Part shown: positions 8,897 to 54,326 of the stretch, piece by piece
Layout: every line of letters starts with the position of its first letter
Numbering within the stretch: position 1 is the first letter of the stretch
DNA from: Candidatus Avelusimicrobium pecoris
Lineage (GTDB): Bacteria; Elusimicrobiota; Elusimicrobia; Elusimicrobiales; Elusimicrobiaceae
Length of the DNA: 64,000 nucleotides
Direction of reading: 5' to 3'
Assembly: GCA_902761975.1 (NCBI GenBank)
Contig: CACWMG010000001.1
Location: 8,340 to 72,339, forward strand
The notes under the pieces: generated by a model
Told to the model about the DNA's origin: nothing
Database searches by the model: none
Seen by the model: the letters and a program-made list of their open reading frames with translations, nothing else
Made by a program: the position numbers and the translations under genes

Positions 8897-9183
8897 TATA
8901 ATAAAACCGAAGTAATGCGCTGAAATTAGGCGCGATAATTTGATACTGTTGTTGGATAGCAGGTATCTGCCCGTTTTACGACGGGCGGCCCGCAAGAAGA
9001 AACCAAGAATAGTCGCTATATAGGCACAAAATTGACCGGGGTAGCTCCCTGGTCGGTTTTGTGCCGAGTGTTTGCCGTCTTTGGCGGCAGACCGCGGCTA
9101 TTATATTGGGCACCTCATTCTTCTTGCGGCTTGGTATAAGAGCCGTATTTTTATACCACAAAATGTTTAAAGCGAGAAGAATT
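8897..9183 (+). promoter_or_regulatory. Structured RNA leader of a prepilin gene (copy A of a new motif)
   Basis: The promoter -10 TATAAT (8897-8902) has an extended TG. The leader of about 275 bases then folds as: H1 GATAC/GTATC (8942-8946/8963-8967); H2 GCCCGT/ACGGGC (8969-8974/8981-8986); P1 CCGCAAGAAGAA/TTCTTCTTGCGG (8990-9001/9118-9129); P2 AATAGTCGC/GCGGCTATT (9008-9016/9094-9102); P3 GGCACAAAA/TTTTGTGCC (9023-9031/9057-9065); P4 TGCCG/CGGCA (9073-9077/9085-9089). A further hairpin pairs 9132-9139 with 9151-9158. The 3' strand of P1 can instead pair with GCGAGAAGAA at 9172-9181, directly before the ATG, so closing P1 would free the ribosome site. Copies B and C keep the same plan with different stem sequences. 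Confidence 0.8.
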
Positions 9184-9831
9184 ATGGAAAAAAGAAATAT
9201 AAGTGAGAAAGGTGTTGCAAATAATCAAATAAGTTGTCATTCCAAACTTGATTTGGAATCTTCAATGCTTGCTGTTTTAGAAAACAAAACGATAAACGGC
9301 CTGCGTGGAAGATCCCGTATCAAGTACGGGATGACGTCTTTATTTAATAACGGCGGTTTTACGCTCATGGAGTTGTTAGTCGTGGTACTTATCATTGGCA
9401 TATTGGCGGCGGTGGCCGTCCCCCAATACCAACTGGCGGTAGCCAAGAGCAGATATGCTACGATAAAAAATCTGACTAAAAGTATTGCAGATGCCCAGGA
9501 AATATATTACTTAGCTAACGGACATTATGCCGATTCTTTTGATTCTTTAGACATAGGCCCTAAAGATGGCGGAAATAAAACCTATCGGGGATATAATTGG
9601 GGATCCTGCACCGTGAATGAGGAAAAAACGACTTGTGCTATTGGTACAAAGTTCCTATACCAAATTTGGTTTCAACATTCCTCCCACCCAGGCCTGCGTT
9701 CCTGTATCGCGCAAAGGGATAATTCTTCCTCTCTGCAAGATAAAGTATGCAAGAGTGAAACAAAAAGAAATACTCCCTCCGGAAGTGGGGGCAGTGGCGA
9801 TTGGACTTATCGGGGCTATTCCTATGAATAA
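9184..9831 (+). CDS. Type IV prepilin with a 58-residue, repeat-bearing leader
   Basis: A 215-residue protein. The predicted prepilin peptidase cut is G58/F59 with Glu at mature position 5 (E63), followed by the pilin helix and an AVAVPQYQ turn. The mature part is about 157 residues, typical for PilE or pseudopilins, with C-terminal Cys residues that could form a disulfide loop. The leader is far longer than the usual 6-30 residues because a composite palindromic repeat (9236-9335) is translated inside it. I chose ATG 9184, after the weak site GAGAAG; an upstream GTG at 9061 would lie inside the structured RNA and is unlikely. The target of its secretion system is unknown and no assembly genes are near. 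Confidence 0.85.
   Translation: MEKRNISEKGVANNQISCHSKLDLESSMLAVLENKTINGLRGRSRIKYGMTSLFNNGGFTLMELLVVVLIIGILAAVAVPQYQLAVAKSRYATIKNLTKSIADAQEIYYLANGHYADSFDSLDIGPKDGGNKTYRGYNWGSCTVNEEKTTCAIGTKFLYQIWFQHSSHPGLRSCIAQRDNSSSLQDKVCKSETKRNTPSGSGGSGDWTYRGYSYE
9236..9335. repeat. Composite family 1 repeat inside a prepilin leader
   Basis: The forward unit is GTCATTCC-AAA-CTTGA-TTT-GGAATCTTC (9236-9263). The inverted unit is GGAAGATCCCGTA-TCAAG-TACGGGATGAC (9307-9335). The spacer of about 43 bases is related to those of the other composite copies. All 100 bases are read in frame as leader peptide. Confidence 0.85.
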
Positions 9832-22411: not shown

Positions 22412-23047
22412 TTATTCAGCTCTGTATTCCCACCCTTGATTGATTAAAGACTTGCAAATTTCCCGTCCGTTATCCGTATACCCTGTACAAACTTTTTCCG
22501 GGGTTTCGTTGCCGCAAACGTGGGGATAGTCTTTCCATAAATCATAAATACACTTTTCCTCTGAGCAGTTCCCATCACAACGGCATGCATATTGTCCACA
22601 ACCATCATCAAAAGCATAATAAAAGTTTTTTGTATAAAAGAATAAGTTGTATTTCCAAATGCCTCCTGTTAAATCAACATCCCACAAATTATGATTGGTG
22701 TAGTAACTTTCCCCAGTATCTCCTTGTTCCAACCATAACATGTTGAAGTTCTTTTCCACAATATTCATATTAGACAATGCCTCTGCTAGTCTGCTCTTCT
22801 CCACTGCCTTTTGATACTGTGGCACCGCCACCGCCGCCAATATGCCGATAATTAGCACCACGACCAACAGCTCAATGAGGGTAAAACCGCAAGCCGTTTT
22901 CTTCCCCCCTAGTGTGGGGGAAGTGGCACACAGTGCCAATGGGGGGTTATCCAATAAGGTTTCCTTATTTACAACCCCCTTACCCCCTTTCAGGGTACTT
23001 TCCCCACAAGGGGGACAGGTTACAATATTTACTCGTTTTTTCATCAT
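22412..23047 (-). CDS. Type IV prepilin with a 54-residue, repeat-bearing leader
   Basis: A 211-residue protein with predicted cut G54/F55 and the GFTLIELL helix start. The mature part (about 157 residues) has many Cys (a run such as CGQYACRCDGNCSEEKC), suggesting several disulfides outside the membrane. The leader is unusually long because a GC-rich family 2 repeat (22903-23016) is translated within it. Two adjacent ATGs (23047 and 23044) follow TAAGGAGAAAA; either may be used. The 5' leader is copy B of the structured RNA motif. The gene stands alone, convergent with fusA. Confidence 0.85.
   Translation of the reverse strand: MMKKRVNIVTCPPCGESTLKGGKGVVNKETLLDNPPLALCATSPTLGGKKTACGFTLIELLVVVLIIGILAAVAVPQYQKAVEKSRLAEALSNMNIVEKNFNMLWLEQGDTGESYYTNHNLWDVDLTGGIWKYNLFFYTKNFYYAFDDGCGQYACRCDGNCSEEKCIYDLWKDYPHVCGNETPEKVCTGYTDNGREICKSLINQGWEYRAE
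22903..23016. repeat. Family 2 GC-rich repeat inside a prepilin leader
   Basis: Hairpin ends built from CCCCC/GGGGG tracts flank a central ACCCCC...AATAAGG core. It aligns, on the minus strand, with 52566-52682: both share GTCCCCCTTG-Y-GGGGAAA, then GGGGGTT, AATAAG-R-AAACCT and TTCCCCC...GGGGGG. Confidence 0.75.
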
Positions 23048-23330
23048 TTTGTTTTCTCCTTATTTTCTGTTTAAGGAGCCAACAAAAACGGTTGTTCCCT
23101 TGAGCCAGAGCAAGTGCCTCAAAAAAACAGCCGTAGTCTACCGTATAAAACGATATACATTGGACGCAAAACAACAGGATTCGAAGGCCTGTTGTTCTGT
23201 GTCTGTATAGGCCGTTTTCGGACTTGCTCTGGGGTGTTTTCACACCGCCACCGTATGCTGTATACGGTTCCAAAAACAGAAAAAAATTTTTAATTTTTAC
23301 GTCTTTAAGAGTATAGCAAATTTGCGGAAG
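23048..23330 (-). promoter_or_regulatory. Structured RNA leader of a prepilin gene (copy B)
   Basis: The promoter -10 TATACT (plus-strand 23310-23315) has TGC upstream. Pairings in plus coordinates: H1 23251-23256/23262-23267; H2 23233-23237/23242-23246 with a GAAA loop in the RNA; P1 23105-23115/23222-23232, 11 perfect pairs, directly abutting H2; P2 23124-23132/23210-23218, nine pairs with one G-U; P3 23163-23178/23188-23203, 16 positions with one G-U and one mismatch; P4 23143-23147/23154-23158. Between P1 and the gene, CTCCTTA and TAAGGAG (23072-23078/23056-23062) form a perfect hairpin that hides the Shine-Dalgarno site. Confidence 0.8.
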
Positions 23331-50211: not shown

Positions 50212-50234
50212 AAAGGTATCTTAAGGAGGTGCTT

Positions 50235-50810
50235 ATGAATAAAGCGTTTACGCGCTGTCGTCATGCTGAACTTGTTTCAGCATCTAGTCGTTCTATGGAA
50301 GGTTTTACCTTGATAGAGCTGTTAGTAGTCGTGTTAATCATTGGTATATTGGCGGCGGTAGCGGTGCCGCAATATCAAAAAGCCGTAGTAAAAGCTAATT
50401 TAGCAGAATTTCAAGTGGCGGCAAATGCCTATATGAAAGCGATTGCATTGTTTCGTTTGCAAGGGTATGATTATCTAACCGAATGGGCTCCTTTCACAGG
50501 TGAAAATCCGGCGGTTGTGTCTGATATAGAGCTCCCTGCGGTTAAAAAAGAAGGAAGCGAAAGTTGGACGGATTCCGGGAGGTATTGGGTCTCATGTAAT
50601 AAGGACAATTTTTGTTATATTCAGTTTTATGGGAAACAAATAGATCAATTACGTTTGCTGTCTTCGCGAGGTTTACCGTGGGCATTAGAACTAACTCCTC
50701 ATAACAAAAAACAACGCCAAGTTGTATGCCGGTGGTGGGCAGAGCAATATGGCACAGCCCGCATGACGACAGATGCCAAAACGGCTTGTGCAGAGGTCGG
50801 TGTGGAATAA
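50235..50810 (+). CDS. Type IV prepilin with a repeat-bearing leader
   Basis: A 191-residue protein with predicted cut G23/F24 and the FTLIELL helix. The mature part is about 168 residues with a few Cys near the C-terminus (CNKDNFC, and CRWW...CAEV). ATG 50235 follows TAAGGAGG; the GTG at 50229 would overlap that site. The leader contains a family 1 palindrome (50260-50285) read as His-Ala-Glu-Leu-Val-Ser-Ala-Ser. Unlike the other complete prepilin genes here it has a short 5' leader and no structured RNA. Confidence 0.85.
   Translation: MNKAFTRCRHAELVSASSRSMEGFTLIELLVVVLIIGILAAVAVPQYQKAVVKANLAEFQVAANAYMKAIALFRLQGYDYLTEWAPFTGENPAVVSDIELPAVKKEGSESWTDSGRYWVSCNKDNFCYIQFYGKQIDQLRLLSSRGLPWALELTPHNKKQRQVVCRWWAEQYGTARMTTDAKTACAEVGVE
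50260..50285 (+). repeat. Palindromic repeat (family 1) inside a prepilin leader
   Basis: GTCATGC-TGAA-CTTGT-TTCA-GCATCT. The outer arm has changed from CC/GG to GC/GC with pairing kept. Confidence 0.85.
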
Positions 50811-53461: not shown

Positions 53462-54064
53462 TTAGTTATAGTAGCAGGTAGTATTTCCGCAAATGCTTTT
53501 ACAAACCTTAGCTCCTACGGCACTTCGTCTCCCATCGCAGAACCATTGTCCGGGGGTAGTGTCTTGGTGCAAATAAGAATAGCAAATTCCTACATCTCCG
53601 TTTTTTTCCCGCGTTCCTTCCACAGCACAAAAATCATTACTATTCATATCCATGATAAAATTTTTACATTTTAAGTCAAAATTGGCAACTTTTGAATCTT
53701 CGCATTCTTCAAAATCAATATCTAAATCAGACCAATAAACCGCGTACTCACCAGTGGATAAAAAATAGTATTCCATTATTTTAGCGGCTTGATGAGCAAT
53801 TAGATTCATTTCTGTAAAGCGTGCTTTAGCCACCGCCACTTGATACTGCGGCACGGCTACCGCGGCCAGTATGCCAATAATCAGCACCACTACCAGCAGT
53901 TCAATCAGCGTGAAACCGCCGTTATTAAATAAAGACGTCATCCCGTACTTGATACGGGATCTTCCACGCTTGTTGTTTATAAACAGCAATAACCTGCGTT
54001 GAAGATCCTGAATCGAGTTCAGGATGACCTGATGATATTTTACAACTCCATTTTCTTTTTTCAT
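53462..54064 (-). CDS. Type IV prepilin with a 50-residue, repeat-bearing leader
   Basis: A 200-residue protein with predicted cut G50/F51, Glu at mature position 5 and the FTLIELLVVV helix. The mature part (about 150 residues) has several Cys near the C-terminus (CKSICGNTTC). The leader is made largely of a composite family 1 repeat (53937-54028). A 57-base block (53913-53969) is identical to one in the prepilin at 9184, ending at the cleavage site. GTAAGGAGAAC precedes the ATG. Its 5' leader is copy C of the structured RNA. Confidence 0.85.
   Translation of the reverse strand: MKKENGVVKYHQVILNSIQDLQRRLLLFINNKRGRSRIKYGMTSLFNNGGFTLIELLVVVLIIGILAAVAVPQYQVAVAKARFTEMNLIAHQAAKIMEYYFLSTGEYAVYWSDLDIDFEECEDSKVANFDLKCKNFIMDMNSNDFCAVEGTREKNGDVGICYSYLHQDTTPGQWFCDGRRSAVGAKVCKSICGNTTCYYN
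53937..54028. repeat. Composite family 1 repeat inside a prepilin leader
   Basis: GTCATCCCGTA-CTTGA-TACGGGATCTTCC (53937-53965) and GAAGATCCTGAA-TCGAG-TTCAGGATGAC (54001-54028) flank a spacer of about 35 bases with ACGCTTGTTGTTTAT, as in the copies at 2054 and 9236. It is read in frame on the minus strand. Confidence 0.85.
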
Positions 54065-54326
54065 GTTATGTTCTCCTTACAATTTGCGGTTTTGTAAGGC
54101 ATAACAAACGGCCGCTATGCCCGGAGTACCTAGAGAGTCCCCAACCATAACAGCCGTAGCCTGCCGCCTTGCGGCGGCAAACACTCGGCACAAAGCAACG
54201 GGGTTATAAGGCCCGTCACTTTGTGCCTAAATATCGGCTGTTTTTGACCTCTAGGTATAGCTTTTTCAAGCTAACTCGTATTCTTCATACGATTCAAAAA
54301 CCATTTCAAATTGTACCTACATTATA
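54065..54326 (-). promoter_or_regulatory. Structured RNA leader of a prepilin gene (copy C)
   Basis: The -10 TATAAT is at plus-strand 54321-54326 with TGC upstream. Pairings in plus coordinates: H1 54277-54281/54287-54291; H2 54258-54263/54268-54273 with a GAAA loop; P1 54127-54135/54249-54257, nine pairs abutting H2; P2 54149-54156/54235-54242; P3 54187-54195/54219-54227; P4 54162-54168/54173-54179 with a GCAA loop in the RNA. Near the gene, 54092-54105 can pair with 54065-54082 (GTTATGCCTTACAA with TTGTAAGG-AGAA-CATAAC), hiding the ribosome site, or TATGCC within it can pair upstream with GGCATA (54098-54103/54116-54121). These two are mutually exclusive. Confidence 0.8.

Follow-up and report, generated by a model that had tools for sequence, protein, structure and literature searches.

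The window analysed here, a 64-kb stretch of contig CACWMG010000001.1 from Candidatus Avelusimicrobium pecoris, contains a structured leader RNA of about 260 nucleotides upstream of a prepilin gene, and the segment 54065-54121 of the minus strand is the 3' end of this leader. The leader is probably a conserved, riboswitch-like cis-regulatory RNA with two states. The hairpin that masks the Shine-Dalgarno (SD) sequence of the gene is ordinary when viewed locally and extraordinary in its context, where it is probably the output end of a switch between two upstream helices, P4 and P8. The elements of the family consensus follow each other in the order P1 (CUGUUUUUGG/CCAAAAACAG), P2, the variable P3, the pseudoknot strand PK5, the P4 5' strand, P5, GAGUGUUU, P7, CGGCUGUU and P8. 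At the 3' end, the pseudoknot strand PK3 lies inside the P8 loop and is followed by the P8 3' strand, a U-rich tract (U-tract) and the SD hairpin. The motif AACAGCCG is present twice in the consensus, before P5 and at the 3' end of P8, and each of the two is complementary to CGGCUGUU. P4 and P8 are therefore mutually exclusive in every copy. P4 and the base of P8 are each able to pair in essentially all copies, and P8 comprises 15 base pairs (bp) in the consensus.

The window carries three copies of the leader, so that the name copy C, used for the present one in a preliminary description of this DNA, is appropriate. The elements of copy C, and the other two copies, are:
54316..54326 (-): TATAAT, similar to a -10 box, then GTAGG; putative promoter, from the sequence
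54104..54304 (-): conserved core of copy C, from P1 to the U-tract (covariance model R1, 171 bits, E = 5.7e-44 in the window)
54294..54304 (-): P1 5' strand AUGGUUUUUGA, family consensus CUGUUUUUGGA
54276..54292 (-): P2 hairpin, a covarying helix
54258..54274 (-): P3, variable hairpin
54249..54256 (-): pseudoknot strand PK5 ACCUAGAG, partner 54128-54135
54235..54247 (-): P1 3' strand UCAAAAACAG, continuing into the P4 5' strand AACAGCCG (54235-54242)
54187..54227 (-): P5 hairpin with the palindromic apical loop UUAUAA (54204-54209), a candidate kissing loop
54179..54186 (-): conserved core motif GAGUGUUU between P5 and P7 (alignment A1)
54163..54178 (-): P7 hairpin, a covarying helix
54149..54156 (-): shared strand CGGCUGUU, whose partner is the P4 5' strand or the P8 3' strand
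54128..54135 (-): pseudoknot strand PK3 CUCUAGGU
54109..54121 (-): P8 3' strand GGCAUAGCGGCCG, also the 5' strand of the alternative stem (P9)
54100..54108 (-): U-tract after P8 UUUGUUAUG, terminator-like (U content in 229 copies)
54092..54105 (-): anti-SD arm GUUAUGCCUUACAA, overlapping the U-tract by 6 nucleotides
54065..54082 (-): SD arm UUGUAAGGAGAACAUAAC, with the SD AAGGAG at 54073-54078
53462..54064 (-): prepilin gene under the copy C leader, 200 amino acids, Pfam N_methyl
8946..9150 (+): copy A, P5 loop palindrome AGCU; prepilin open reading frame (ORF) 9163-9831 (+) downstream
23084..23279 (-): copy B, P5 loop palindrome UUCGAA; prepilin ORF 22412-23047 (-) downstream

The transcript of copy C presumably starts near ACAATTTGA (54306-54314). 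A box similar to TATAAT or TATACT is found at the same place in most copies of the source genome (G000; 1.24 Mb, 86% complete).

The state of the upstream switch is predicted to affect access to the SD. In 167 copies folded with either helix forced, the mean probability of the SD being paired is 0.59 with P8 and 0.39 with P4 (p = 4e-18). Replacement of P8 by P4 turns the SD from masked to free in 44 of these copies and from free to masked in one, compared to 7 and 9, respectively, for shuffled 3' leaders. The energy gap between the two states has a median of 0.5 kcal/mol, which is close to bistable. When the leaders are swapped between copies, the effect decreases from 0.20 to 0.13 (p = 0.003), and part of the coupling between P4/P8 and the SD is therefore copy-specific. 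Masking of the SD by the copy's own arm with a helix of at least 7 bp is found in 74 of 197 copies (38%), as opposed to 23% after swapping of the arms (p = 1.5e-5). The masking arms change their sequence from copy to copy, and SD pairing exceeds that of shuffled sequences (p = 2e-9).

The P8 3' strand, when released, would have a second partner. It can form at least 6 bp with the region after the U-tract in 34 of 133 clusters, where a strand-swap test gives an expectation of 15.7 (sd 3.6), and at least 8 bp in 10 clusters (1.45 expected); a control region further downstream showed no enrichment of pairing with this strand in the 133 clusters. This pairing is the second state of the preliminary description, here found to be enriched across the family, and it overlaps the anti-SD arm in 19 of the 32 copies that have both features. 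A mimic of the P1 3' strand, CCAAAAACAG with no more than two mismatches, is present in 50 of 207 leaders (6.1 in shuffled ones), typically beside the anti-SD arm.

For copy C, the preliminary description had proposed that TATGCC takes part either in a stem covering the SD and the bases before the ATG or in a stem with GGCATA just upstream, the two states sharing six bases. The arms GTTATGCCTTACAA (54092-54105) and TTGTAAGGAGAACATAAC (54065-54082), the ATG of the prepilin gene (54062-54064), TATGCC (54098-54103) and GGCATA (54116-54121) are all located on the minus strand where they had been placed, exact to the base, and all six bases 54098-54103 are used in both stems. The masking stem is the predicted fold of copy C (131 nucleotides, -58.6 kcal/mol, z = -7.35, 0 of 200 shuffles). 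Its pair probabilities are mostly 0.93-1.0, and it is predicted to be stable at 37 C. The balance between the two hairpins did not hold up. The alternative stem can be extended to 9 bp (GGCAUAGCG / UGUUAUGCC), but the two hairpins on their own favour masking (-17.5 versus -13.8 kcal/mol locally), and GGCAUA/UAUGCC has a pair probability of about 0.01 in the local fold. P8 uses the same GGCAUA, and with P8 included the alternative stem reaches -41.2 kcal/mol versus -58.6 for masking (probability about 0). Thus the masking stem is real and family-wide and the alternative pairing belongs to a class enriched in the family, but in copy C it is weak. The predicted switch is larger than was supposed, and its decisive pair is P4 versus P8, further upstream.

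Comparison of the copies supports the predicted helices, the pseudoknot, the P4/P8 competition, SD masking and the palindromic loops discussed below. Standard pairs occupy 95.9% of the pair cells in 119 copies. Changes on both sides are seen at 27 of 37 pairs, and the covariation score is 0.443 (0.189 shuffled), with rows that were aligned by the covariance model and are hence biased towards it. The same copies contain 618 double-sided changes versus 173 in shuffles, and the signal is lost when the partners are slid. The pseudoknot is absent from the covariance model, and its evidence is therefore independent of the alignment bias: 7-11 Watson-Crick bp can form in 212 of 212 copies, with a mean of 9.67 versus 3.18 when the strands are swapped between copies. 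The sequence of the pseudoknot helix is private to each copy, and P1 is nearly invariant across the family. A further long-range helix, P0, between CAAUUU at the 5' end and AAAUUG of the SD-hairpin loop, was dropped, as its 3' partner seems to be missing in many relatives. The AAAUUG/CAAUUU complementarity is present in most copies of the source genome, for instance at 54080-54085 and 54306-54314, the presumed 5' end of the transcript.

In 198 of 212 copies, the apical loop of P5 forms a palindrome; the 22 distinct sequences include UAAUUA, UUAUAA, UCAUGA, UUCGAA, UUGCAA, GAUC, AGCU, GGCC, GUAC, CUCGAG and CUGCAG. Among 103 distinct P5 apices, 59 have a central palindrome of 6 nucleotides and 91 one of 4 nucleotides, versus 7.2 (maximum 16 in 500 runs) and 28.8 (maximum 40) in shuffles. 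As a control, the P7 loop in these RNAs gave 12 of 175 and 31 of 175, respectively. The apical palindrome is thus kept through sequence changes, as is expected of a symmetric kissing loop. Palindromes made of A and U only are 6 nucleotides long in 97 of 98 cases, and those of 4 nucleotides contain G-C in 52 of 53, which fits the energy requirement of base pairing. Neighbouring bases within a single loop are unable to pair together, which argues for kissing between molecules. Pairing of the P5 loop elsewhere in its own leader was rejected, since the palindrome is repeated in 6 leaders with 5.4 expected. The P5 palindromes are likely the signature of intermolecular kissing loops and of RNA dimerization.

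These elements can be combined into a mechanism. In the OFF state, P1 and P8 would form and leave the anti-SD arm free to mask the SD; P8, which ends in the U-tract, may also terminate transcription. In the ON state, P4 would capture the P8 5' strand (CGGCUGUU) and the copy-specific pseudoknot helix would be formed. The released P8 3' strand would then pair with the anti-SD region, forming the alternative stem of the preliminary description, and the SD would be free. The P1 5' strand, released in the nested fold, would pair with the CCAAAAACAG mimic in the anti-SD region. The conserved core and the palindromic P5 kissing loop are the probable sensing and assembly domain, which probably acts as a homodimer. 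Within this model, the assignment of the ON state in the cell, termination, dimerization and any ligand or trigger are inferred. A bolder version, which we put forward tentatively, is that leaders with the same P5 palindrome kiss and that the resulting dimer, whether or not a ligand takes part, decides between P4 and P8. If this is true, the palindrome type would wire some pilin, glycosyltransferase and restriction-modification genes together and insulate others, and the private pseudoknot would keep every copy folding on itself.

Several observations weigh against the two-state leader. All the evidence is computational, either comparative or thermodynamic. No qualifying SD helix is found in 35 of 197 copies, and some copies have no ORF call. 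In copy C with P4 formed, the alternative stem with a free SD equals the masked SD (-102.6 and -102.5), and the masked P8 state (-110.4) is more stable than either fold by about 8 kcal/mol when pseudoknots, ligand and dimer are left out of the model; the probability of SD pairing in copy C drops only from 0.67 to about 0.40-0.47 when P4 is forced. Among the minimum-energy folds of the 167 copies with P4 forced, pairing of the P1 5' strand with the leader occurs in 121 (108 shuffled) and P9 in 62 (56 shuffled). These counts are hardly above shuffles, and the claim for P9 consequently draws on the strand-swap test and that for the P1 strand on the enrichment of the mimic only. ViennaRNA forbids pseudoknots, so that forcing P4 nests the pseudoknot and breaks P1; in reality P1, the pseudoknot and P4 might coexist.

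The hallmarks of a riboswitch, a conserved structured core in the 5' leader and, computationally, an expression platform of exclusive structures governing SD access or termination, are present in the family, and they have to be set against rival accounts. The SD hairpin might merely lower initiation or act as an RNA thermometer, the upstream RNA serving, for example, mRNA stability. The predicted and stable hairpin of copy C and the recurrence of masking in the family agree with such a static attenuator. Such an attenuator would not be expected to have a duplicated strand behind P4 and P8, two states of nearly equal energy or an SD effect that runs 44:1 in one direction. Leaders in their native copy also couple more strongly than swapped ones, and we regard this account as improbable. 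More serious, albeit still doubtful, is a ligand-independent transcription attenuator or processive antitermination, in which regulation acts through termination at P8 and the U-tract, with the SD hairpin in a secondary role. U makes up 79% of the 8 nucleotides after the CCG of P8 in 229 copies (30% background), P8 has its 15 consensus bp, and the SD hairpin is missing in L030 and in several copies of the second family, f21. The P8 loop, however, is long and pseudoknotted, unlike that of usual terminators, and SD masking is conserved too. A terminator pattern scan, which allows only shorter loops, did not flag P8; this negative also bears on termination in the two-state leader. Attenuation is compatible with the two-state leader and may be an addition to it. 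Conservation of the U-tract would likewise be accounted for if it formed a triple helix with the A-U-rich P1.

The remaining alternatives concern DNA or protein. A mobile or recombination element that acts as folded DNA, similar to attC, would account for the 0 to at least 128 copies among relatives and for their dispersal before accessory genes, the hairpins at the ATG being incidental. In such an element, G-U pairs should not greatly outnumber A-C mismatches, but the counts are 312 and 44, and the folded molecule under selection is therefore the sense-strand RNA. Moreover, nearly all copies are sense-oriented before an SD-bearing ORF, they have diverged to about 67-80% identity over long matches, and the exact pattern has 0 matches in the viral contigs of IMG/VR; folded DNA is very improbable. 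The two-fold symmetry of the P5 palindrome could equally serve binding by a dimeric protein, or recognition in the DNA, instead of an RNA-RNA contact. The 22 palindromes would then demand many protein specificities, and the split into AU-only loops of 6 nucleotides and G-C-containing ones of 4 is that required by base-pairing energy, which makes a protein or DNA site unlikely.

The genes that follow the leaders are mostly pilins. Out of 236 non-redundant copies, 128 were automatically classed as lying before pilin genes. This is an under-count, since several genes classed as 'other' can be recognised by eye as pilins; 19 copies have no ORF call. A sense ORF with an SD is found downstream of nearly all copies. 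Representatives of the other downstream genes encode glycosyltransferases (families 2, 8 and 9), an outer-membrane beta-barrel, an EcoRI-type methylase, a type III methylase, an HSDR_N protein and a PLD/NgoFVII-like protein; judged from their predicted products, these are surface and defence genes. In L217:1268-1687 (-), two RNA copies stand in tandem, 57 nucleotides apart, before an EcoRI-type methylase-like gene. In L030:1527-1686 (+), a short copy without the SD hairpin is followed directly after the U-tract by an ORF of 71 amino acids (MDKNVKQILREL...), and small proteins are also encoded downstream of copies in L088, L106 and L156. The source genome has 81 N_methyl (prepilin) motifs, and therefore not every pilin gene carries the RNA; G080 has at least 150. 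A prepilin-like ORF of the window, 50229-50810 (+), has no RNA copy upstream, and G102, a single contig, has 76 N_methyl motifs, yet only one degenerate RNA copy.

In 18 of 30 prepilins under a leader in the source genome, 30-93 amino acids separate the initial Met from GFTLIE. This extension, examined at 53462-54064 (-), 22412-23047 (-), 9163-9831 (+) and in copies of the source genome, is encoded in frame by palindromic repeats of the GTCATCCTGAACTTGATTCAGGATCT and CCCCCTTGTGGGGAAA types and would lie in the part that the prepilin peptidase removes. The repeats are reminiscent of the palindromic elements inserted in Rickettsia genes.

BLAST located the leader at 34 places in the source genome, and a covariance model derived from 26 copies found 45. 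It is present in 94 of 341 Elusimicrobiota genomes as two families, f1 and f21, the hosts of the latter being probably Endomicrobiaceae. The number of copies per genome ranges from 0 to at least 128, the maximum being that of G080 (1.7 Mb), a lower bound from 150 scored candidates. Separate expansions occurred in G120 (50) and G081 (54) and, within f21, in G312 (22) and G318 (25). A scan of 84,980 species genomes with an exact pattern gave at least 116 stretches. Among the 80 matches listed, nearly all carry the titles Elusimicrobia, Elusimicrobium, Elusimicrobiales, Elusimicrobiaceae or Elusimicrobiota, and the small remainder just 'uncultured bacterium'; where a title gives a source, it is rumen, gut or faecal. 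With the covariance models, the RNA was only found in gut-associated Elusimicrobiota. A viral origin was rejected, as the exact pattern had no match in IMG/VR. No Rfam 15 family, including GEMM, OLE, ROOL, GOLLD and T-box, matched at gathering thresholds, a permissive Rfam search gave matches at chance level only, and no description of this RNA was found in the open-licence part of PubMed Central.

The leader appears to be an undescribed class of RNA. Its use seems to be very extensive, with 45 copies in the source genome and at least 128 in one relative, and its apparent task is the control of surface and defence genes in a gut phylum that has received little study. It combines in one cis-regulatory RNA a two-state expression platform and a very strong comparative signature of homodimerization, and the question of whether bacterial leaders regulate as RNA dimers therefore becomes directly testable. 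It resembles riboswitches in its position in the 5' leader, its conserved core and pseudoknot, its exclusive helices leading to terminator-like and SD-masking stems, and its sets of related genes. It differs from them in having no Rfam riboswitch match, copy numbers of up to at least 128 per genome, a private pseudoknot and a palindromic loop. The GEMM-I cyclic dinucleotide riboswitches of Geobacter and its relatives are likewise present in many copies per genome with pilins among their targets, but the sequence and the architecture of the leader, with a core of about 200 nucleotides and no Rfam match, are unrelated. The EAR, LoaP and RfaH-ops antitermination elements are found in the leaders of surface-polysaccharide and pilus genes; the present leader differs in that it has no Rfam match and its downstream units are mostly short single genes.

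The HIV-1 dimerization initiation site is a six-nucleotide palindrome in an apical loop of the 5' leader (PMC7357161), but it serves dimerization of a viral genome and is not homologous. OLE, ROOL and GOLLD are homo-oligomeric ornate RNAs (Kretsch et al. 2025, PMC12286853). They are larger, none is known to act as a two-state leader on the SD next to it, and they have no Rfam homology to the leader. In OLE, the apical loop of L9.3 changes from GGCC to GAUC or AGCU, and such palindrome-to-palindrome covariation was taken as evidence of symmetric intermolecular kissing in both OLE and GOLLD (PMC12286853). The same tetranucleotides are among the 22 palindromes of the leader described here.
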